Origin: Paeniglutamicibacter gangotriensis Lz1y
GTDB taxonomy: Bacteria; Actinomycetota; Actinomycetes; Actinomycetales; Micrococcaceae
Assembly (NCBI RefSeq): GCF_000348945.1
Contig: NZ_AOCK01000005.1
Span: 1 to 64,000, forward strand
Length of the DNA: 64,000 nt
Direction: 5' to 3'
Shown: in pieces, positions 47,889-59,838 of the stretch
Position numbering within the stretch: position 1 is the first letter of the stretch
How the letters are laid out: every line of letters begins with the position of its first letter
Notes under the pieces: model-generated
What the model was told of the DNA's origin: nothing
Databases searched by the model: none
Seen by the model: only the letters and a program-made list of their open reading frames with translations
Program-made: the position numbers and the translations under genes

Positions 47889-47944
47889 TATATGCACCAC
47901 CTTTCTTGGTGGTTGTGGGTGCGGGTTTCGCACCTTGCTTATGC

Positions 47945-47957
47945 TGAGGTTACCTCA
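47945..47957. promoter_or_regulatory. Palindrome in the ABC exporter/marR divergent promoter
   Basis: TGAGGT-T-ACCTCA is a perfect 6-bp inverted repeat, extended imperfectly to TATG...CATA. It lies 57 bp from the exporter start and 51 bp from the marR start, a good position for a MarR operator. Confidence 0.6.
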
Positions 47958-48008
47958 CCATACGGCTTCCAGTCAATGTCGCCGACCCCCGACGGTAAGC
48001 TGAAAGGC

Positions 48009-48473
48009 ATGGCATCACGCAAAAACCCAGCAAGTCCCGGGGATCTTTCGGAGCTATTCCATCGCTCTTTCCGATTGCTTCGCCATTCATGGTCACAACG
48101 TCTGGCCCCTTTCGAGCTGACCCCGCACCAATTCCGGGCATTGCACACGCTGACGCGCAATGCCGCGGACCCGCATTCCGCCGACGGGATGCGCCTGAAA
48201 GACGTGGCAGAACGCCTGCGCATTGCCGCTCGTTCGGCCACCGAAGTTGTTGACCACCTCGAAGCCAAGGGGCTCGTGGCCCGCGGGGCCGACCCGGTCG
48301 ACCGACGCGCCACCTTGGTCACGCTCACCGATGCCGGACGCGAGCTGACCGAGCAGGTGCGCACCGCACGCCGCGCGCACACCGAGGACTACTTCTCACA
48401 GCTAGACGCCGCCGAGCGCGCCGAGCTCGCCCGTATCCTGGGCAAGCTCTCGGGCCCTGCCGAACACCAGTAG
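48009..48473 (+). CDS. MarR-family transcriptional regulator
   Basis: This 154-aa winged-helix protein has the core LTPHQFRALHTLTRNAA, MRLKDVAERLRIAARSATEVVDHLEAKGLVARGADPVDRRATLVTL, split here as helix 3/4 and wing, which is fully typical of MarR proteins (DPxDRR wing). The start is ATG 48009; AAGG is very close, so leaderless translation is possible. It is divergent from the ABC exporter and probably represses it through the palindrome at 47945-47957. Ligand unknown. Confidence 0.92.
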   Translation: MASRKNPASPGDLSELFHRSFRLLRHSWSQRLAPFELTPHQFRALHTLTRNAADPHSADGMRLKDVAERLRIAARSATEVVDHLEAKGLVARGADPVDRRATLVTLTDAGRELTEQVRTARRAHTEDYFSQLDAAERAELARILGKLSGPAEHQ

Positions 48474-48520: not shown

Positions 48521-50482
48521 TTAGGTTTCGGATTTGCCTCGGCGCCAGTAACCCATGAAGGCCACCTGTTTGCGGTCCATGCCTGCATCGCGCACCAGGT
48601 AGCGGCGCATATCCTTGATGACGCTTGCCTCCCCTGCCAGCCATGCATAGAACGGCTGGGTGGAGGCGGTGGAGGTCTCCCAGAGGATCTGTTCATCGAT
48701 GTCAACGTCTTCGGGTTCGGCACCGGTCAGTACCGCTCCGGCCGCAGGTATCGCCACGATGTCACGCACCGCGGCGGCCAGCAGCTCACCATGCGGATGG
48801 GAGCCGCGCGGCAGCCACTGCACCGAGACCCCTGAGCGTGTGGAGGAACCCTGGATGTCACCGGTGTCGGGGACCTCAATGAGCGCGTGCCCGGTGATAC
48901 CTGCCGGCAGGGACTCGAGAATCGAGCAGATGGCCGGGGCAGCCGTCTCGTCACCTGCCAAGAGAATGCGTTTGGCGGTGCCTGGACGGAATTCGATGCC
49001 ACCGTAATCGGCTCCGCACAAGGCAGCGTTGGGACCCAACAGCAGGATCGGGTCCCCGAGCCGCGCCTGGGCAGCCCACACCGTGGCAGGGCCTCCGGTG
49101 AGCTTCCCGCCGTCGGTACGCAGATGCAGCACGAAGTCGATGTCGATTTCCGGTTCGCTGCCGCAGTTATCCCGGTGCCCTGCTTCGCGCAGGGCACGCA
49201 CCGTATAGGTACGCATGACCCCACGGGATTCGGCCGGCAGTGCCAGCCAACGCCGATACCAGCCGGTGGCGTCGGCACGTGAGAGCAGTGCGCCGGGGCG
49301 CAGCGACTCGAAGGCTGCCGGCAACTGGTCCCCGCCCCCGGCAGGGTCCATGTCCGGGGTGAACATCAGCTTGATGCGCAGATCCAGCGGGGCGTCCCCG
49401 GCACCGAAGTGTTCCAGGTCCTTCCCAGCCAGGGTCAGGCGCCGGAAGTTCTCGCCGATCGGTTCGATGCGCACCACCTTGGTGGCGAAGGCGAGCATGT
49501 CACTGATTTCCTCGGCACGCTCGATCCCCTCCCCCGCCGGTGTGTTTGACCCGGGATCAGCCGCCGTGGCGCGGGCCTGCACTTCCTGGGTTCCGGCTTG
49601 CGGCCCCTGCACCGGCGCAGGGCCTGCATCAAGGTCGGCATCGGGGTTCTGCGTGCGGTGGATGCCGTTGGCGGCCAACACGGTTTCGGCGCGCAGCACC
49701 CGGTGCCGACCAATGGGTAGCACCAGTGGGGTGCCGGCCACCGGGTCAGGGATAACGCGGCACGGCATGCCGAAGACGTTTTTTACCATCGCCTCGGTGA
49801 CGACCGCGGCGGGGTGCCCGGCGGCAACAATCTTGCCTTCTTTCAAGGCGATCAGGTGATCGGCGTAGCGGGCGGCAAGATTCAAGTCGTGCAGCACGAT
49901 TACCACGGTGGTGCCGCGGGTGCGGTTGAGCTCGGAGATCACATCGAGCACCTCCAGTTGGTGGGCCACATCTAGGTAGGTGGTGGGCTCGTCGAGCAGC
50001 AGCAACTCGGTTTCCTGCGCCAGGGCCATGGCGATCCAGACGCGCTGGCGTTGGCCCCCGGAGAGCTCATCAACGGGGCGTTCGGCCAAACCCGTGGTGC
50101 TCGTCAGCGTCATGGCGCGCTCCACCGCGGCCTCGTCTTCGGAGGTCCAGCGCTTGAACCAGCCCTGATGTGGGTAGCGGCCGCGGCCGATCAGTTCGCG
50201 CACGGTGATTCCGTCGGGCGCGGTGGGGGTCTGTGGCAGCAACCCCAGCATTTTGGCGACCTCGCGGGCGGGCCGGGAGTGGATGTCTTCCCCGTCCAGT
50301 AGCACCTTGCCGCCGGCGGGCTTCAGTAGCCGGGCCAGCCCACGCAGTAGCGTGGATTTGCCGCAGCCGTTGGCCCCGACAATGATCGTGACCTCGCCGG
50401 CCGGCAGCGCCAGGGAGAGCTCGTCGACGATGCTCACCGCGTCGTAGGCGAGTGTGAGGTCCTGCGCTTCGAGAAGTGCCAT
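48521..50482 (-). CDS. FepC-type siderophore ABC ATPase fused to a siderophore-interacting FAD protein
   Basis: This 653-aa protein joins two iron-uptake functions. Residues about 1-270 are a complete ferric-siderophore ABC ATPase: Walker [10 protein letters not shown], signature LSGGQRQRV, Walker [13 protein letters not shown] and the H-loop [14 protein letters not shown] Pro/Ala/Gln-rich linker (about 285-340) leads to a siderophore-interacting protein domain (about 345-653) with FAD motif MRTYTVRAL and NAD(P)H motif [12 protein letters not shown]; the end, [13 protein letters not shown], is the usual SIP terminus. SIP proteins reduce Fe3+ from siderophores in the cytoplasm. There is no stop or frameshift between the domains. 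The start is ATG 50482, eight nt past the permease stop. Confidence 0.9.
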
Positions 50483-50490
50483 AAAGACCC

Positions 50491-51621
50491 TCAGGTTCCT
50501 TCCTTGTTGGTGCGCACCAGGACCCAAATCAGGAACGGTGCTCCCAGTGCGCCGGTGACGACGCCAACTGGTAATTGTATGTCGGGCAAAATGTTGGCGG
50601 CGAGGAATGTGGCCGTGGTGACCAGCAGCGCGCCGGTCAGCGCCGCGGACCCCAGGTGGCTGCGGCCCTTGCACAGGCGCAGGGCCAGCGGCCCGGCCAG
50701 GAATGCGACGAAGGCCAACGGGCCGGTCACCGCGGTGGCCACTGCACACAACCCGACCCCCAGCAGGATCAGTCCCAGCCGGGTGCTGCGGACCTTGAGC
50801 CCGAGCCCGGCGGCGGTGTCATCGCCCAGTTCTAGGATGCGTAGTTTTGCCGCGGCAGGTACCAGCAGCGGGAACAGGATCGCCAGCGCCGCTGCCAGCA
50901 GGGACGCACGCTCCCAGGTGCTGGCCGATAGCGACCCGGTGAGCCACCGCAGGGCATCGCCGGCGGTGCGCACATCGGTGCGGGTCAGCAAGTATTGGAT
51001 GACGCTTTGGAGCATGGCCGCCACCGCGATGCCGGCCAGGATCAGCCGTGGCCCGGTGTTCTTGCCCGCTTCGGCGATCGAGTAGATCAGCAGGGCCACG
51101 GCCAACGCACCGGCGCAGGCGATCAGCGAGAGCCCCAGGCCCTGGGCCCCGAAGAGCAGCATGCCGGCCACTGCCGCAGCGCTGGCCCCGTAGCCGACGC
51201 CGATCACGTCGGGGCTGGCCAAGGGATTGCGGAGCATGCGCTGGAAGATTGCCCCGGAGGCGCCGAATGCCGCCCCGGCAAGGATGCCCACCGCGGCCTG
51301 GGGCAGGCGGTCCTCCCAGAGCATGAAGGAAACCCCGGGGACTGTTTCACCGGCCAGTGCCGCCAGCAGCTCGGGCACGGAGAACGGGTGGCGGCCAGCC
51401 AGCAGGTTCAGCAGCACCGCGGCCAGGATCCCGGCACAAGCCAGTAGGTTCACCCGGGCCACCGTGGACTTCCTGCGTACCCGGGGCAAACGTTCGGGTG
51501 CAGAGGCGGTGTCGAGAGTTTGCGAGCGAGGAGCCGGGACCGCCGGGGCAGAGAGGGAAGAGGGGCGCCGAGCAGCGGGTCGGACAATCTTTCGGGCCGG
51601 GCCCAGGAGCTGACGGGTCAC
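50491..51621 (-). CDS. Iron-siderophore ABC permease (FepG/FecD type)
   Basis: This 376-aa permease of the FecCD family has an unusually long basic N-terminal region (about 50 residues, rich in Arg, Ala and Pro) and then about nine membrane helices. Landmarks are [23 protein letters not shown] (about 145-167) and the C-terminal [21 protein letters not shown]. The start is a GTG at 51621 that overlaps the stop of the upstream permease by 4 nt (GTGA), showing translational coupling. It forms the membrane channel with the permease at 51618-52682 and the ATPase of the fusion protein. Confidence 0.93.
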
Positions 51622-52682
51622 AGGGAAACCTTCTTTCCGCGGCGCAACAGCCAGAGAAACAGCGGGGCGCCAAGCACCGCGGTCATGACCCCGACCTGGA
51701 TCTCGGCGGGCGGGGCAATAACCCGGCCCAACACGTCGGCCAGCAAGAGCAACACCGGGCCGGCCAGCATGGACAGCGGCAACAGCCAGCGGTAATCAGC
51801 CCCGGCCACGGCCCGCACGGCGTGCGGAACAATCAGCCCGACAAAACCGATGGGCCCGGCCAGTGCCGTGGCAGCACCGCATAACAGCACCACTCCGGCC
51901 GCCGACACCGCGCGCCCGCGGCCCACCCGGAAACCCAGCCCGACCGCCGAATCATCACCCAATGCCAAGGCGTTAAACAACTTCGCACCGGCCAGCACCG
52001 CCAGGGCACCCAGCGCCAGGAACGGGGCGACCGAAAGCATCTCGGGAACATCCCGGGCCCCGAGCGTGCCGACCTGCCAAAACCTGAAATTATCTAGTGC
52101 CTCCTGGCCGATCATCAGCACCGCATTGGTCAGTGAGCCCAGACCCGCGGCCATGGCCGCCCCGGCCAGCGCCAATTTCAGTCCCGTAGCCCCGTCGCGA
52201 CCCAGCGAGGCCACCACGTAGACCAGCGCCGCGGCACCGCCTGCGCCCACAAAGGCGAAGAGCATGTATCCGTGCAGCGTGGAGACGGAAAAGAAGTGGA
52301 TGCCGGCAACCACTGCCAACGCGGCGCCGGCGTTGACCCCCAGGATTCCGGGGTCGGCCAGCGGGTTGCGGGTGATTCCCTGCATTCCCGCGCCGGCCAG
52401 GCCCAGGGCCGCCCCGATCAGCAATCCCGCCACGGTACGCGGGATGCGCGAGGCCACCACCACGTGATCGCTATTGGCTGGGTCAAGCTCCAGCAAGGCC
52501 TCGAACACCGTAGGCACGGCGATCGGGCGGGCTCCGATGAGCAACGATGCGAATACCGACATCAGCAGGATTCCCAGCAACACCAACCCCACCAGCGGCG
52601 CGCGCAGGGAACTGCGGGGTGTTCGTGGTTTCGCCGGGGCCGCCAACCCGAGGGAAGAGACGGCCTTCGTGGGCGTGCTCAT
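51618..52682 (-). CDS. Iron-siderophore ABC permease (FepD/FecC type)
   Basis: This 354-aa FecCD-family permease has nine to ten membrane helices and the family landmarks LGLAGAGMQGITRNPLADPGILGVNAG (about 100-126, read in two parts) and GFVGLIVPHAVRAVAGADYRWLLP near the C-terminus. It is the first gene of a three-gene unit (permease, permease, ATPase-SIP). The ATG at 52682 is only 56 bp from a divergent metallo-hydrolase start, and I see no iron box in that gap. The substrate is a ferric siderophore of unknown type. Confidence 0.94.
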   Translation of the reverse strand: MSTPTKAVSSLGLAAPAKPRTPRSSLRAPLVGLVLLGILLMSVFASLLIGARPIAVPTVFEALLELDPANSDHVVVASRIPRTVAGLLIGAALGLAGAGMQGITRNPLADPGILGVNAGAALAVVAGIHFFSVSTLHGYMLFAFVGAGGAAALVYVVASLGRDGATGLKLALAGAAMAAGLGSLTNAVLMIGQEALDNFRFWQVGTLGARDVPEMLSVAPFLALGALAVLAGAKLFNALALGDDSAVGLGFRVGRGRAVSAAGVVLLCGAATALAGPIGFVGLIVPHAVRAVAGADYRWLLPLSMLAGPVLLLLADVLGRVIAPPAEIQVGVMTAVLGAPLFLWLLRRGKKVSL

Positions 52683-52738
52683 AGTTTCATCCCGCGAGCA
52701 TGGACCCTGGAGGGGGCCGTGGACCTAGACTGGGGGCC

Positions 52739-53533
52739 ATGAGCAAGCAGTACGCCATTCGCGTTACCGACAATGCCAGCTTCTTGTTGGCCCCCAACCC
52801 CGGGCCCATGTCCCTGGACGGAACCAACTCCTGGATCCTGCGCGCGCCCGGATCCGAACATGCACTCATCGTCGACCCTGGCCCGTTGGATGCCAGTCAT
52901 CTCGCGGCGTTGGCCGCCGAATCGGTGGAGCTGATCCTGATCACGCACCGCCACGGCGACCACACCGAGGGCATCGACACACTGCACCGGCTCACCGGTG
53001 CTCCGGTGCGCGCCGCGCTGCCCGAGCACTGCCGCGATGCGCCGGTCCTTGAAGACGGGGAACAGATCGAGGCCGCGGGCCTGCGCCTGCTGGCCATCGC
53101 CACCCCGGGCCACACCTCGGATTCCTTCAGCTTCCTGCTGCCCGAGGACGGTGCCCAAGGATCGATGCTCACCGGGGACACGATTCTGGGTCGCGGCACC
53201 ACCATCTTGGATGCGCCCGATGGAACTCTGGCCGATTATCTGGCCACATTGGATGTCTTGGAATCCTCCCCGGATGCGCTGGTGCTGCCCGCACACGGGC
53301 CCACCCTTCCCTCGCTGCATACGATTGTGCGGCACTACCGCGCCCACCGGCATGAGCGGCTGGATCAGATCCGCGCCGCGCTGGCGCAACTGCGTGCGGC
53401 CTCCACTGCCGACCCGACCATCGGACAGGTCACCGACGCGGTCTACGCCGATGTCGACCCCGCGGTGCGCGGGGCAGCCGAGACCTCGGTGATGGCGCAA
53501 CTTCGTTATCTCAAGGAATTCGAAGGGGTCTGA
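52739..53533 (+). CDS. MBL-fold metallo-hydrolase
   Basis: This 264-aa metallo-beta-lactamase-fold protein has the zinc motif as THRHGDHTEG (HxHxDH variant, about residues 68-77), a downstream ligand His in TPGHTSDS, the GDTILGRG Asp and a final His in PAHGP. The winged-helix-like C-terminal region (about 195-260) is typical of the LACTB2/RNase Z-like branch, which includes RNA hydrolases; beta-lactamase activity is unlikely. The start MSKQYAIRV is conserved in relatives as I recall. It is transcribed against both siderophore gene groups on either side. Confidence 0.9.
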   Translation: MSKQYAIRVTDNASFLLAPNPGPMSLDGTNSWILRAPGSEHALIVDPGPLDASHLAALAAESVELILITHRHGDHTEGIDTLHRLTGAPVRAALPEHCRDAPVLEDGEQIEAAGLRLLAIATPGHTSDSFSFLLPEDGAQGSMLTGDTILGRGTTILDAPDGTLADYLATLDVLESSPDALVLPAHGPTLPSLHTIVRHYRAHRHERLDQIRAALAQLRAASTADPTIGQVTDAVYADVDPAVRGAAETSVMAQLRYLKEFEGV

Positions 53534-53582: not shown

Positions 53583-54623
53583 CTATTTCCCTGTCGAGGC
53601 CTCCGCGCCTGCGGCAAATGCCGGCACGACCTTGTCAAGGGCGTAGGGAACCGACAGCGGGGAGGCCGCCGAGATCGCCAGCGTCTCCATGTCGCTGGTG
53701 ACCGCCACCAGTCCGCCCTTGGAGATGGCCGGGATCTGGGCAAAGAGCTTATTTGCCATGATCGCGTCAACGCCGGCGGTGGCCGAGGTGAAGAAGATGT
53801 CCGAATCGAGTTCGTTGGCACGCTCGGCGGCCCAGGTCATGAAGAACTCACCCTCCTTGGCGTTTTCGTCCACGATCGGAGCCTGGGTCATGCCCAGCGC
53901 GGTGAGGAAACGCGGGCGCGAGTCGCCGGTGGCATACAGACTGATCACGCTGTCGGCGACGTTGAGGTCTCCGGCAATGAACGTGGTGTCCTTGAACACC
54001 GGGTTGGCTTCAGCCGCCGCGGTGATCTTGCCTTCGACATCGGCGACGACCTTGGCTGCCTCGTCGTCCATGCCCAGCGCCTTGCCCACTGCGGTGGTGA
54101 CTTCTTGCCAGCCCGCTGTGTAGTTGGCCGCCAACGGGCCGACGACCGGGGCGATCTTGGAGAGCTTGTCGTATTCGTCCTGGGTCAGGCCCGAGTAACC
54201 AGCCATGATCACATCGGGTTCCAGCTCGGCGATGGCGGTGAAGTTCACGCTGTCGGCTTCCGAGTACTGCTTCGGTGCTTTTTCGGTGCCGATGGAGGCG
54301 CCGAGCTCGGCAAGCTTGGCATCCTTCCAGTCGGTCGAGCCTTGCTCGTTGTTTCCCCACGTGTCTTCGGCCATGCCCACCGGCACCACGCCGAGCGCCA
54401 ATACGGCGTCGGCATTGACCCACGAAACCGTCGCCACGCGCTCGGGCTTCTTGGTGATCTCGGTGCTGCCATAGATGTGCTCGATGGTGACGGGGAAGGC
54501 CGCGTCGGCCGCCGTGCTCGAATCTGCCGGAGCCTGACCTGACGTCGCGCCACATGCGGAGAGAGTCAGGGCCAGTGCTGCCGAGGCCGCTGCAAGCAGG
54601 CCGGTGCGTCGTGTGATTTTCAT
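53583..54623 (-). CDS. Iron-siderophore ABC transporter substrate-binding lipoprotein (FepB type)
   Basis: This 346-aa lipoprotein has signal peptide MKITRRTGLLAAASAALA with lipobox LSAC (Cys about 24), then a type III periplasmic-binding fold with KKPERVATVSWVNADAVLALGVVP, IAELEPDVIMAGYSGLTQDEYDKLSKIAPVV read as two segments, and a C-terminal lobe. It binds the ferric siderophore outside the membrane and hands it to the FecCD permeases. The permease and ATPase genes lie about 900 bp downstream on the same strand, separated by the opposite MBL gene. An iron-box-like site is present upstream. Confidence 0.94.
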   Translation of the reverse strand: MKITRRTGLLAAASAALALTLSACGATSGQAPADSSTAADAAFPVTIEHIYGSTEITKKPERVATVSWVNADAVLALGVVPVGMAEDTWGNNEQGSTDWKDAKLAELGASIGTEKAPKQYSEADSVNFTAIAELEPDVIMAGYSGLTQDEYDKLSKIAPVVGPLAANYTAGWQEVTTAVGKALGMDDEAAKVVADVEGKITAAAEANPVFKDTTFIAGDLNVADSVISLYATGDSRPRFLTALGMTQAPIVDENAKEGEFFMTWAAERANELDSDIFFTSATAGVDAIMANKLFAQIPAISKGGLVAVTSDMETLAISAASPLSVPYALDKVVPAFAAGAEASTGK

Positions 54624-54726: not shown

Positions 54727-54745
54727 ACGAGTAAGGCTAACCTCA
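54727..54745 (-). promoter_or_regulatory. DtxR/IdeR-type iron box upstream of the FepB-type gene
   Basis: On the minus strand the site contains AGGTTAGCCTTAC. It matches 13 of 19 positions of the actinobacterial consensus TTAGGTTAGGCTAACCTAA, including the AGGTTAG core. It lies about 105 bp before the start codon. Confidence 0.7.
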
Positions 54746-55867: not shown

Positions 55868-55886
55868 TTAGGCAACCCTTGCCTTC
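55868..55886 (+). promoter_or_regulatory. Weak iron-box-like site 1 upstream of the second siderophore operon
   Basis: TTAGGCAACCCTTGCCTTC keeps the TTAGG-A-CT-CCT framework of DtxR/IdeR boxes (11 of 19 consensus positions). It lies about 155 bp before the binding-protein start. Confidence 0.4.
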
Positions 55887-55931: not shown

Positions 55932-55950
55932 CTAGGCATGCCTTATCTAT
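55932..55950 (+). promoter_or_regulatory. Weak iron-box-like site 2 upstream of the second siderophore operon
   Basis: CTAGGCATGCCTTATCTAT matches 11 of 19 iron-box consensus positions and lies about 90 bp before the binding-protein start, a more usual operator position than site 1. Confidence 0.4.
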
Positions 55951-56039
55951 AGCGTTTCACATAAGTTGATTTACGCAATGAGGTTGTTCCCTAATTAGCA
56001 GCAGGTTTGGAACAGCATCCACAACATCGGAGAAAAATC

Positions 56040-56984
56040 TTGAAGACCCCGCTTCGCGTCGTCCTGGGCGCATTTGCCGCCGGCGCATCCCTTCTTGCTT
56101 TGACCGCTTGCGGCGGCTCCACCGAGGCCGGCGCCAAGGCCGACTCCGGTGAGACCGTGAGTATCACCCACGCTCAGGGAACTACCGATGTTCCGGTCAA
56201 TCCGGAGACCGTTTACACCTTCGATTTGGGTGTACTCGACTCGATGACGGCCCTGGGGCTGGACGCCGATGGCGTGCCTGAAACCAAGTACCCGGAGTCG
56301 CTGGCCAAGTACAACGACGACTCGGTCACCAAGATCGGTTCCATGAAGGAACCTGACTTCGAAGCCATCTCCAACGGCAACCCCGATCTGATCATCATCA
56401 CCGGTCGCACCGCCACCTCCTACGAGGAACTCTCCAAGATCGCCCCAACCGTTGACTTGTCGGTGGATATCAAGAAGCCACTGGATTCCTTCAAGGAGCA
56501 GGCAGGCAAGCTCGGGACGATCTTCGCTGCCGAAGACAAGGTCACCGAGAAGCTCACGGCACTGGAAGCCAAGATCACCGATACCAAGTCCAAGAGCGCA
56601 GACGCCGGCAAGGGCCTGATCGTCATGACCTCCGGCGGTGAGCTCACCGCCTACGGCGCAGGCTCACGCTTTGGCCTGATCCACGACGTACTCGGGGTGG
56701 CAACCGTTGCCGACATCAAGTCCGAGGGTTCCCACGGCGAAGCGATCTCCTTCGAGTTCCTCAAGACCAACAACCCCGATACCCTGTACGTGATTGACCG
56801 CGATTCGGCCATGGGCACCTCCGGCGACGCGGCCAAGGCCGTGCTGGACAACGAGCTGGTCAAGTCCACCAACGCCGCCAAGAACAACAAGATCGTCAAC
56901 CTGGATTCCAACGCCTGGTACATGATCGGTTACGGCCTGAACAACACCGACAAGATGATCGACGAGGTAGCTGCGGCTCTGTAG
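56040..56984 (+). CDS. Siderophore ABC transporter substrate-binding lipoprotein (YclQ/FatB type)
   Basis: This 314-aa lipoprotein starts at a TTG (56040) preceded by GGAGAAA; the signal peptide MKTPLRVVLGAFAAG leads to lipobox LTAC. The binding fold is of the YclQ/FatB/CeuE group: TTDVPVNPETVYTFDLGVLDSM, EPDFEAISNGNPDLIIITGR and VIDRDSAMGTSG are recognisable blocks. It would capture ferric catecholate or similar siderophores. It is the first gene of a four-gene operon with two permeases and an ATPase, the standard order for this transporter type. Confidence 0.94.
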   Translation: MKTPLRVVLGAFAAGASLLALTACGGSTEAGAKADSGETVSITHAQGTTDVPVNPETVYTFDLGVLDSMTALGLDADGVPETKYPESLAKYNDDSVTKIGSMKEPDFEAISNGNPDLIIITGRTATSYEELSKIAPTVDLSVDIKKPLDSFKEQAGKLGTIFAAEDKVTEKLTALEAKITDTKSKSADAGKGLIVMTSGGELTAYGAGSRFGLIHDVLGVATVADIKSEGSHGEAISFEFLKTNNPDTLYVIDRDSAMGTSGDAAKAVLDNELVKSTNAAKNNKIVNLDSNAWYMIGYGLNNTDKMIDEVAAAL

Positions 56985-57012
56985 CCACCGAGCCACAGTC
57001 CCAAGCATCAAC

Positions 57013-58053
57013 ATGAGCGCACCAGTACTCAGCCGACCGGCCGCCGCGAATCAGGATCCCGCGGTGGCCGTTCGGCGTTCCAAAAAGCCGTCAGAAACAC
57101 TGTGGCTCATCGCCGGGACGATCCTGGTGGGGCTGCTCGCCGTAGTGAGCCTGTTCGTCGGGGTCTCCGATGTCACGCTCCCCCAGCTGCTGGCCGGGGA
57201 ACCCGAGGCATGGGACCTGCTGTGGATCTCCCGGGTGCCACGCACCCTGGCCGTCATCCTGGCCGGCACGGCGGTTGCCGTAGCCGGGCTGATCATGCAG
57301 CTGATGGTGCGCAACCGCTTCGTCGAACCTTCCACGGTGGGCACCGTGGAGTCCGCGACCCTGGGCATCCTGGTGATCACCGTATTGATCCCCGCCGCCC
57401 CGATCATGCTGAAGATGGGCGTGGCCTCCGTGTTTGCACTAGGCGGCACCGCGCTCTTCCTGGCCGTACTGGGCAGGCTCCCGGCCCGCAACACGCTGCT
57501 GGTGCCCATCGTGGGCATCATGCTCGGCGGGGTCATCGGCTCGGTCACCACCTTCTTCGCCTACAAGTACGATCTGCTGCAAACCCTGAGCAACTGGATG
57601 ATCGGCGATTTCTCCGGGGTGCTGCGGGGACGCTACGAGCTGTTGTGGATCGTCGCGGCGCTCACCCTGGCCGGGTACTTGGCGGCCGACAGGTTCACCG
57701 TGGCGGGTCTGGGCGCCGACTTCACCACCAACCTGGGGATGAATCACAAGGCCATCATGCGTCTGGGCCTGGTGTTGGTCTCGCTGATCTCCGCCGTAGT
57801 GGTCACCACCGTCGGTGCAGTCCCCTTCCTCGGATTGATCGTGCCAAACATCGTCTCACTGCTTTTCGGCGATAACCTGCGCCGTGCCGTGCCCTGGACC
57901 GCGCTCTTCGGGGCCGGCTTCGTATTGGTCTGTGACATCATCGGACGCACCATCCGATTCCCTTATGAGGTTCCCGTGGGCATGGTGATGAGCGTGCTTG
58001 GCGCCACCATCTTCCTGGCCCTGCTGCTAAAGACCAGGAAACGCAATGCCTAA
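57013..58053 (+). CDS. Siderophore ABC permease (YclN/FatD type)
   Basis: This 346-aa FecCD-family permease has nine to ten membrane helices. Blocks include LLWISRVPRTLAVILAGTAVAVAG (about 74-97, read in parts), MVRNRFVEPSTVGTVESATLG and the C-terminal TIRFPYEVPVGMVMSVLGA. It starts 28 nt after the binding-protein gene and its stop overlaps the next permease start by 8 nt, so expression is coupled. Confidence 0.94.
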   Translation: MSAPVLSRPAAANQDPAVAVRRSKKPSETLWLIAGTILVGLLAVVSLFVGVSDVTLPQLLAGEPEAWDLLWISRVPRTLAVILAGTAVAVAGLIMQLMVRNRFVEPSTVGTVESATLGILVITVLIPAAPIMLKMGVASVFALGGTALFLAVLGRLPARNTLLVPIVGIMLGGVIGSVTTFFAYKYDLLQTLSNWMIGDFSGVLRGRYELLWIVAALTLAGYLAADRFTVAGLGADFTTNLGMNHKAIMRLGLVLVSLISAVVVTTVGAVPFLGLIVPNIVSLLFGDNLRRAVPWTALFGAGFVLVCDIIGRTIRFPYEVPVGMVMSVLGATIFLALLLKTRKRNA

Positions 58054-59083
58054 GACACTTCCACCCGCCGTCGTGCGAACCCGCCGTCCAATTCCTTGGC
58101 GCCACTTCTCCCCCGCCATGCTTTCACCCAAACGGATTTCCCCCGCCGTGGTGATCACGGTGATGGCAGTGCTCACCTTGGTGTGCATCACCCTGTTCAT
58201 GACCCTGGGGCTGCGCGGGAACCTGTCCTACGCACTGAGTCTGCGCGGGATCCGCGTCGGGGCGATGCTGGTCGTTGCCGTCGCGGTGGGCCTGTCCACG
58301 CTGATGTTCCAGACCGTGACGGCCAACAGGATACTGACCCCCTCGATCATGGGGTTCGACGCGCTGTACATCCTGATCCAAACCGCCCTGGTGTTCATGC
58401 TGGGCTCCTCCACACTGCTCACCGCCGCCCCCGGGCTGAAGTTCGGGGTGGAGGTCGGGCTGATGATCGTCTTCTCCGCGCTGCTCTACCGCTGGCTATT
58501 CACCGGCGGCACCGGCTCGCTGCACCTGATGCTGTTGGTGGGCATCGTGATCGGCACGCTCTTCCGCGGGTTCTCCTCGCTGCTGCAGCGCTTGATGGAA
58601 CCCAGCGAATACATTGTTCTCCAGGACCTGTTCTTCGCCTCCTTCAACCAGGTCGAACCGTTGCTGCTGGGCATCTCCGCGATCATCGTGGCATTGGTCG
58701 CCGCGGTGGTGTGGAAGCTGCGCAAGAGCTTCGATGTGCTGGCGCTGGGCCGCGAGACGGCCATCAACCTGGGCGTGGACCACCAGCGCATCGTCACAGT
58801 GGTCCTGGTGCTCTGCTCGATTCTGGTGGCCGTCTCCACCGCGCTGGTCGGTCCGGTGACCTTCTTCGGGCTGCTGGTGGTGTCGCTGGCCTACCAAATG
58901 GTTCGCAAGTTCTCCCACGCCGCCCTGATTCCCATTGTCTGCCTGCTCGGGGCCATCACGCTGATCGGCGGCCAGCTGCTGCTCGAGCGGGTCTTCGGCT
59001 TCGCCACCGCACTGAGCGTGATCATCGAGTTCGCCGGCGGACTGTTGTTCCTCTACCTGCTGTTGAAGGGTTCCCTGAAGTGA
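58046..59083 (+). CDS. Siderophore ABC permease (YclO/FatC type)
   Basis: This 345-aa FecCD-family permease pairs with the preceding gene. Recognisable blocks are LRGIRVGAMLVVAVAVGLSTLMFQT (about 68, read in parts), NRILTPSIMGFDALYILIQT and VGPVTFFGLLVVSLAYQM. It overlaps the previous gene by 8 nt and the following ATPase by 4 nt (GTGA). Confidence 0.94.
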   Translation: MPKTLPPAVVRTRRPIPWRHFSPAMLSPKRISPAVVITVMAVLTLVCITLFMTLGLRGNLSYALSLRGIRVGAMLVVAVAVGLSTLMFQTVTANRILTPSIMGFDALYILIQTALVFMLGSSTLLTAAPGLKFGVEVGLMIVFSALLYRWLFTGGTGSLHLMLLVGIVIGTLFRGFSSLLQRLMEPSEYIVLQDLFFASFNQVEPLLLGISAIIVALVAAVVWKLRKSFDVLALGRETAINLGVDHQRIVTVVLVLCSILVAVSTALVGPVTFFGLLVVSLAYQMVRKFSHAALIPIVCLLGAITLIGGQLLLERVFGFATALSVIIEFAGGLLFLYLLLKGSLK

Positions 59084-59838
59084 TCTGCATTGATTCGGTG
59101 ACCAAGTCTTACTCCGGAAAAACCGTGGTGGACAAGGTCAGCACCACCATCCCTGCCGGCGGTGTCACTTCCATCATCGGGCCCAACGGCGCGGGCAAGT
59201 CAACACTGCTGTCCATGATTTCGCGGTTGATCCCCATGGACTCCGGCGCCGTATCCATCGCCGGGCTCGACATCGGGCGCACCCCCAGCAAGGACCTGGC
59301 CAAGTCCATGGCGATCCTGCGCCAGGAAAACCACATCACGATGCGCCTGCGGGTGCGCGACTTGGTGGGCTTCGGACGCTTCCCGCACTCCGGCGGACAC
59401 CCGACCAGCGTGGACGAGGACCATATCCTGGCGGCCATGGACCAGATGGGCCTTGGCGAGATGGCGGACAGGTTCCTTGACGAGCTCTCCGGCGGGCAGC
59501 GCCAGCGTGCCTACATCGCCATGGTGCTGGCCCAGGACACCGACTACCTGTTGCTGGACGAACCATTGAACAACCTGGATATGAAGCACTCGGTGGAAAT
59601 GATGCGCATGATCCGGCGCCTGGCCAATGAACTGGGCAAGACCGTAGTCATCGTCATCCACGACATTAACTTCGCTTCTTGCTACTCGGACAACATCCTG
59701 GCCATGCGCGAGGGTGCCCTAGTGCACCAGGGAACGCCGGCGGAAATCATGCGCGTCGAGGTGCTGCGCGATGTCTACGACATCGATATCCGCATCGAGG
59801 AGATCGACGGAAACCGGATTGGCGTGTACTTCGCATAA
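59080..59838 (+). CDS. Siderophore ABC ATP-binding protein (YclP/FatE type)
   Basis: This 252-aa ATPase powers the transporter encoded by the three preceding genes. Walker A is IGPNGAGKST, the signature [13 protein letters not shown] and Walker B YLLLDEPLNNLD; the switch His is in VIHDINFASCYSD. The start is a GTG at 59080 that overlaps the permease stop as GTGA. The frame is open much further upstream only as an antisense-like reading of the permease gene. Unlike the other siderophore system in this window, no SIP domain is attached. Confidence 0.94.
   Translation: MICIDSVTKSYSGKTVVDKVSTTIPAGGVTSIIGPNGAGKSTLLSMISRLIPMDSGAVSIAGLDIGRTPSKDLAKSMAILRQENHITMRLRVRDLVGFGRFPHSGGHPTSVDEDHILAAMDQMGLGEMADRFLDELSGGQRQRAYIAMVLAQDTDYLLLDEPLNNLDMKHSVEMMRMIRRLANELGKTVVIVIHDINFASCYSDNILAMREGALVHQGTPAEIMRVEVLRDVYDIDIRIEEIDGNRIGVYFA

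Follow-up and report, generated by a model that had tools for sequence, protein, structure and literature searches.

A gene in the window (i.e., the whole 64,000-nucleotide stretch of Paeniglutamicibacter gangotriensis Lz1y DNA analysed here) joins a siderophore-importer ATPase and a SIP-type flavin reductase in one reading frame, which raises the question of what the importer, or the reductase, could gain from being on the same chain. To our knowledge, ATPases of the FepC/FhuC/FecE type carry no SIP domain, and the reduction of ferric siderophores at the importer versus free in the cytoplasm has been little tested outside IrtAB. The initial annotation had proposed that the fusion would locate ferric reduction at the cytoplasmic face of the importer and thereby couple transport to iron release.

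The gene is a single uninterrupted frame of 653 codons, starting with the ATG at 50480–50482 and encoding a product of 653 aa; its coordinates had been given exactly in the initial annotation (Table 1). Pfam recovered ABC_tran (residues 20–168, 1.8e-33 as a whole-protein value), FAD_binding_9 (residues 335–487, 9.2e-23, 81.2 bits with a gathering score of 23), and SIP (residues 504–649, 4.5e-35, 121.2 bits with a gathering score of 26.3) on this one chain, and as the last two domains both exceed their gathering scores the C-terminal half was classified as a putative SIP ferric-siderophore reductase. Motifs were located by pattern. The ATPase half holds Walker A (GANGCGKS, residue 36), the Q-loop (LLPQ, 81), the signature (LSGGQ, 140), Walker B (LLLLDEP, 160), and the H-loop (VLHDL, 196), i.e., the full set used to recognise a type II (BtuCD-fold) importer ATPase, and the SIP half holds the FAD motif RTYTVR (424), GDETAAPA (510), and GYWRRG (644). 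The best NCBIfam model for the ATPase half was FepC (NF007606; 5.4e-102, 340.7 bits vs. a cut-off of 497) with FecE and FhuC next to it, all under their curated cut-offs, hence we call this half FepC-like only and not a FepC equivalog. Its closest solved structure is FhuC (7lb8), and the SIP half has solved relatives in 6k2l, 7xlz, 2gpj, 8c4l, and 4yhb. The linker of 66 residues had been described as Pro/Ala/Gln-rich, which is only roughly right: alanine does dominate (13 residues), followed by Gly (7), Glu (6), Pro (6), Thr (5), Gln (5), and Asp (5). In Shewanella SIPs, a lysine triad was proposed to bind the ferric siderophore (PMC11965169, available part). K371 of the fused protein aligns with the first of these lysines within a weak stretch (~8 bits), and a hand count along the alignment puts the chain end before the second and third, which have no apparent counterpart here. 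Two more SIP-type FAD domains are present in the same genome (C8:137843-138184 and C1:279897-280244), in frames of 283 and 423 aa that are too short for an ATPase-SIP fusion.

Table 1. Features of the fused gene and its surroundings in the window
Feature	Position	Strand	Basis or remark
Fused gene, FepC/FhuC-like ABC ATPase - linker - SIP flavin reductase	48521..50482	-	Open frame (stop codon included), Pfam
ATPase half, residues 1–262	49697..50482	-	Pfam ABC_tran, ABC motifs
Linker, residues 263–328, Ala/Gly/Glu/Pro-rich	49499..49696	-	Variable in length and sequence
SIP half, residues 329–653	48524..49498	-	Pfam, solved relatives
FAD_binding_9 domain	49022-49480	-	Pfam
SIP domain	48536-48973	-	Pfam
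Met329, in-frame ATG, weakly supported candidate internal start	49496..49498	-	Comparison within the window's genus
FecCD permease 2	50491..51621	-	Pfam FecCD 7.1e-73; upstream neighbour of the fused gene (8-nt gap), codirectional
FecCD permease 1	51618..52682	-	Pfam FecCD 1.9e-88; 4-nt overlap with permease 2
Metallo-beta-lactamase-fold hydrolase gene	52700-53533	divergent	Between the binding-protein gene and the permease genes
Substrate-binding protein, likely of the importer	53583..54623	-	Pfam Peripla_BP_2 9.6e-21
AAGGCTAACCT, resembles half of a DtxR/IdeR-type iron box	54733..54743	+	~110 bp upstream of the binding-protein gene

The fusion is encoded together with FecCD permeases and a binding protein, as expected of an importer ATPase, with the binding-protein gene set apart by the divergent hydrolase gene. 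The latter still adjoins the fused gene in the Arthrobacter rhombi group after the departure of the transporter genes (see below). The best NCBIfam model for the binding protein is of the FepB type (69.4 bits vs. a cut-off of 205), and the siderophore substrate is not nameable from sequence. Another genome of the window's genus (locus L253) has an exact copy of the half-site AAGGCTAACCT ahead of the same gene, at a distance of 111 bp. Allowing at most 1 mismatch to the half-site, for which a DtxR/IdeR-type consensus was assumed, 2 sites were observed in the window vs. 0.26 expected (a count of 2 is attained in 4 of 100 shuffles) and 1 in L253 vs. 0.06 expected (10 of 200 shuffles). A full iron box was considered and dropped: even with 3 mismatches allowed, the 19-mer has no match, and a looser pattern matched 4 times in the window vs. 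1.78 expected, a number attained in 13 of 100 shuffles; the claim is therefore limited to the half-site. A second siderophore importer lies on the plus strand (56007-59838), where Pfam identifies a binding protein, an FecCD permease, and an ATPase, including a second permease-like frame (58046-59083), and upstream of it are two weak iron-box-like sites (55868-55886 and 55932-55950, 2 mismatches each). The frame at 47892-48473, which adjoins the fused gene, matched no Pfam family at 1e-10 and has by eye the look of what we take to be a MarR-type regulator. The RUSTI iron island of cheese bacteria was also considered as the home of the fused gene and rejected, as its ATPase subunit and siderophore reductase are described as separate genes in the available part of PMC5526665; judged by this description, the fused locus looks different from RUSTI.

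Both halves share one stop-free frame in all 15 searched genomes of the window's genus, the window's own included (a whole-length match in 12, two same-frame pieces in 3), which is the reverse of the situation that the initial annotation had named as fatal to its proposal, namely a fusion confined to this assembly with stop codons in close relatives. When named genomes were scanned using an alignment of 23 SIP halves as query, the best 80 loci of at least 572 relatives comprised 16 fused genes, 63 separate pairs, and one locus (Brevibacterium) without an upstream ATPase, in agreement with the earlier statement that these are separate proteins in most bacteria. The 16 fusions belong to Glutamicibacter (2), Brachybacterium (5), Arcanobacterium (2), Arthrobacter sp. 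S41, Arthrobacter sp. MYb227, Zhihengliuella, Helcobacillus, and an uncultured Micrococcaceae (one each), as well as to the A. rhombi group (A. rhombi and one similar MAG), so that the species range, proposed initially as a check, extends to five other named genera plus the latter group. The junction in strain S41 is identical to that of a Glutamicibacter-group locus, and the one in MYb227 to that in a genome of the window's genus. With the same frame throughout the genus and 16 fusions among these 80 loci, the explanation that two genes were joined by an assembly or sequencing artefact, or that the fusion is a local oddity, is refuted, and we give it practically no chance.

The fusion is present in nine coded genera (g1, g18, g21, g23, g25, g27, g42, g82, and g113). 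Further loci (sets of 20, 20, 20, and 9) were hand-picked, partly for long open frames, and the share of fusions among them is not a frequency. In a sample of the phylum, 10 of 396 genomes gave a match at 1e-40, and the window's own was the sole fusion among their 10 loci. Of 64 distinct fused proteins, all have Walker B and the H-loop; Walker A is found in 62 (missing only in two g25 proteins), the Q-loop and signature in 61 (missing only in three A. rhombi-group proteins), and the FAD and GD(E/S)TA motifs in 63 each. No published report of an ATPase-SIP fusion of this architecture was found in the open-access library searched, including the available parts of PMC2991359, PMC8082909, and PMC12161575, which does not prove that none exists; in these parts, PMC2991359 gives ATPases and iron-release proteins separately, without an ATPase-SIP fusion, and the fusions treated in PMC12161575 are desGH.

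The separate pairs point to a way in which the fusion may have formed. A possible SIP start codon is located at -4 from the ATPase stop in 59 of the 63 separate pairs that lie among the best 80 of at least 572 relatives (55 ATG, 4 GTG), generating a 4-nt ATGA or GTGA overlap; Sinorhizobium sp. K101 has this overlap in its annotation, and Arthrobacter sp. StoSoilB13 has it as well. Such start/stop overlaps are the usual mark of translational coupling, and pairs that carry them stand one indel away from fusion. Given how common the overlap is, the fusion probably arose from a translationally coupled pair, and the overlapping gene pair is likely the ancestral state. In the SIP tree (106 of 112 rows; the long-branch rows L122, L166, L164, L169, L035, and L159 were left out), 34 of the 36 fused rows form one group (support 89) together with two stand-alone SIPs, and the remaining two, both of g25, are placed among separate pairs. 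The fused/separate label needs 2 changes on this tree against the separate rows alone, or 4 when counting the stand-alone SIPs, and 2 on the ATPase tree (91 sequences). The tree thus favours a second fusion event in g25, and one common origin of all fusions was not retained as settled. We do not take the second event as established either, since one common origin was not rejected by an AU test on 95 of the 112 rows (17 left out; p = 0.188). A second locus of Glutamicibacter creatinolyticus (L176) is a decayed copy of the cluster with the two halves mutually out of frame; it keeps pieces of the binding protein, hydrolase, and permease and was counted among the 63 separate loci, yet is no working pair.

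The linker is variable and weakly constrained. Over 36 representative fusions, the gap between the alignable halves ranges from 9 to 89 residues, and in 10 pairs from 5 genomes of the window's genus the dN/dS of the linker was 0.27–0.63, with 0.008–0.094 for the ATPase and 0.03–0.23 for the SIP half (computed with the experimental Biopython YN00 routine, some dS values being high). This order of constraint is reversed in the A. rhombi group, represented by all three sampled genomes of that coded genus (L250, L251, and L252), where the SIP half is tighter (0.07–0.11 vs. 0.20–0.35 for the ATPase in the three pairs, all dN/dS < 1). At this locus, the three genomes have kept the hydrolase, regulator-like, and exporter flanks but no longer contain either permease or the binding protein. 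The best match to permease 1 elsewhere in these genomes reaches 45–46% vs. 54–87% in four comparison genomes, hence the orthologous importer seems to have been lost. Other FecCD importers occur in each of the three, with ATPases 49–60% identical to that of the window, and the SIP half may serve them. Their own ATPase halves lack the Q-loop and LSGGQ and retain the H-loop and both Walker motifs (A and B). There are at least two distinct lesions among them, and the frame into the SIP half is intact in all three. None of the three has an ATG in the linker, and the in-frame GTG that they share at -7 has no SD match ahead, so the SIP half is probably translated only behind the ATPase remnant. The two stand-alone SIPs in the fused group of the tree (L146 and L148) are encoded in their own frame, each with an upstream sequence that by eye resembles an iron box. 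L146 neighbours two permeases and an ATPase (58%), divergent on the other strand, and L148 has no permeases or ATPase within 5.5 kb; the SIP has thus been retained here without sharing a chain with the importer. Together with the A. rhombi group, these two loci suggest that the tether is dispensable.

In Brachybacterium, the same gene may yield the reductase in two forms. Among 20 fused loci of this group, 18 are distinct, and every one of these has an in-frame start codon in the linker (10 ATG, 7 GTG, 1 TTG), 20–55 codons ahead of the SIP half and preceded at exactly 5 nt by an SD sequence (AGGAGG in 16, GGAGG in 2), while ~4.1 such sites would be expected over these linkers if they were as frequent there as in the coding bodies of these genes. 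All seven valine codons at the internal start are GTG, which accounts for 56% of Val codons, and the single leucine codon is TTG, which accounts for 0.6% of Leu codons; one locus of this group (L261) has a second internal SD and start site. The 18 genes are related and therefore not independent. As SD and start are kept in all of them, the Brachybacterium gene probably gives both a tethered and a free reductase. For comparison, the stand-alone SIP of L148 has GGAGG 5 nt before an ATG at -21. Outside Brachybacterium, a good linker SD with an in-frame start occurs in 3 of 46 distinct fusions, below the ~14 sites expected when the separate groups are summed, and the fused chain is thus likely the main product.

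Whether the window's genus also makes the SIP half alone, starting at Met329, was considered separately, and we find this quite improbable. An ATG at this place is present in 13 of the 15 genomes, with GAGGA(A/G) upstream in most, and 7 of 15, the window's not included, have an ATG that is preceded by an SD match of 5 nt at a spacing of 3–12. However, the ATG is absent from two genomes of the genus, and when the spacing is restricted to 4–8, a site remains in only 1 of the 14 distinct genes, where it is a GTG at another place in the linker, as opposed to 18 of 18 in Brachybacterium. In addition, GAGGA falls within the block RAEEIS...LAF, which aligns by eye with RPAxExxxTLAF in genera lacking the Met. 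As a general trait, the Met329 start was rejected, since, apart from an ATG in the two g27 genomes, it is not conserved beyond the window's genus, within which it leaves some slight room for a separate SIP product.

BtuCD-type importers have two ATPases beneath a pair of permeases, and SIPs reduce ferric siderophores using FAD and NAD(P)H. On this background, the fused protein would be the ATPase of a type II (BtuCD-fold) importer for ferric siderophores, and two copies of this protein would associate with the pair of FecCD permeases whose genes lie immediately upstream. Because there are two ATPases per importer, the fusion would set two reductase domains beside the cytoplasmic exit. Electrons would pass from NAD(P)H, the presumed donor, through FAD to the Fe(III) of the arriving siderophore, the presumed substrate, which once reduced would release Fe(II). 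The C-terminal SIP is, in the reading that we consider fairly probable from these comparisons, a flexibly tethered and autonomous reductase on the importer ATPase, whose tether may provide production at a fixed 1:1 ratio and a short distance, with no mechanical link to ATP hydrolysis, and which would have formed from a gene pair along the path outlined above. Of the initial proposal, co-localisation at the cytoplasmic face remains plausible given the importer architecture, and the coupling part is not supported. In a true coupling, the ATPase cycle would gate the reductase or reduction would drive substrate release, for which the physical linkage speaks and nothing else. Against this stand a linker that varies between 9 and 89 residues, a decayed ATPase in front of an intact and constrained SIP half in three A. 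rhombi-group genomes where the SIP outlives the importer genes, and stand-alone SIPs in two genomes of the fused group, so that mechanical coupling is not supported and appears to us very improbable. In the available part of PMC10246721, moreover, IrtAB lacking its SIP-like domain shows ATPase activity comparable to that of the wild type.

A more serious competitor to the autonomous tethered reductase is that an ATGA pair lost its stop through an indel and left the fusion as a neutral or stoichiometric by-product, in which each domain functions just as it would on a separate chain and proximity is useless. Overlapping pairs are indeed the common state among the separate relatives, the linker is weakly constrained, and the SIP outlasts the loss of importer genes from the locus and also occurs alone. 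Yet the fusion extends over nine coded genera, in the SIP tree 34 fused rows are grouped with no more than 2 stand-alone ones, and the tree favours a second fusion, a single origin being not rejected. We therefore regard the by-product explanation as unlikely and prefer the autonomous tethered reductase both over it and over mechanical coupling. Across the relatives, the join seems to have been made, kept, hedged by a second start site, and undone. These states could be stages of a one-gene, two-product reductase system, in which Brachybacterium would make a tethered chain for the importer and, from the internal linker site, a free SIP that acts on other siderophores; those without the site, namely Glutamicibacter, Zhihengliuella, Arcanobacterium, and the window's genus, would depend on the fusion; and in the A. 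rhombi group, the transporter being lost, the decayed ATPase would serve as a mere leader of an active reductase. We put the chances of this joint reading at even.

The nearest known system is mycobacterial IrtA, a subunit of the mycobactin importer IrtAB in Mycobacterium. In both proteins, a SIP-type FAD domain is joined covalently to an ABC subunit by a flexible segment (for IrtA, according to the available text of PMC10246721), and the domains are homologous, the SIP family profile also matching the IrtA SIP-like domain (chains 7wiu, 6tej, and 6tek). They differ in that the SIP-like domain of IrtA is N-terminal and belongs to a half-transporter of the exporter fold with TMD and NBD on one chain, while in the fused protein the SIP follows a FepC/FhuC-type ATPase that has no TMD of its own and is encoded next to FecCD permeases, with two identical copies expected per importer. 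As the SIP is C-terminal and no ABC_membrane domain is among the 25 Pfam families listed for the fused protein, it would work like IrtA but is not a member of the IrtA type. The same part of PMC10246721 reports that the SIP-like domain of IrtAB swings on a flexible loop, is required for the uptake of Fe-mycobactin, and is dispensable for Fe-carboxymycobactin.

Other systems share only part of this architecture. Importer ATPases of the FepC/FhuC/FecE type have the motif set of the ATPase half, which scores below their equivalog cut-offs, and stand-alone SIPs (ViuB, FscN-type, Shewanella- and Aeromonas-type) share the FAD_binding_9 and SIP domains and GYWRxG but are unfused. The internal SD and start in Brachybacterium resemble genes of the CheA-long/CheA-short type, as CheA is made as a full-length and a C-terminal product, the latter from an in-frame internal start. 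Nature thus provides this pair of domains in fused, split, dual-start, and transporter-less form, in several cases in bacteria of soil and cheese, which makes the value of the tether directly measurable. The ATPase-SIP pairs of Arthrobacter, Pseudarthrobacter, Paenarthrobacter, and Sinorhizobium sp. K101 have the same order and domains but on two chains. A further pair, recorded under Sporosarcina beigongshangi (L246), presumably a Bacillota species, groups with that of Arthrobacter psychrochitiniphilus (support 86), a placement that reflects a transfer, contamination, or a wrong name.
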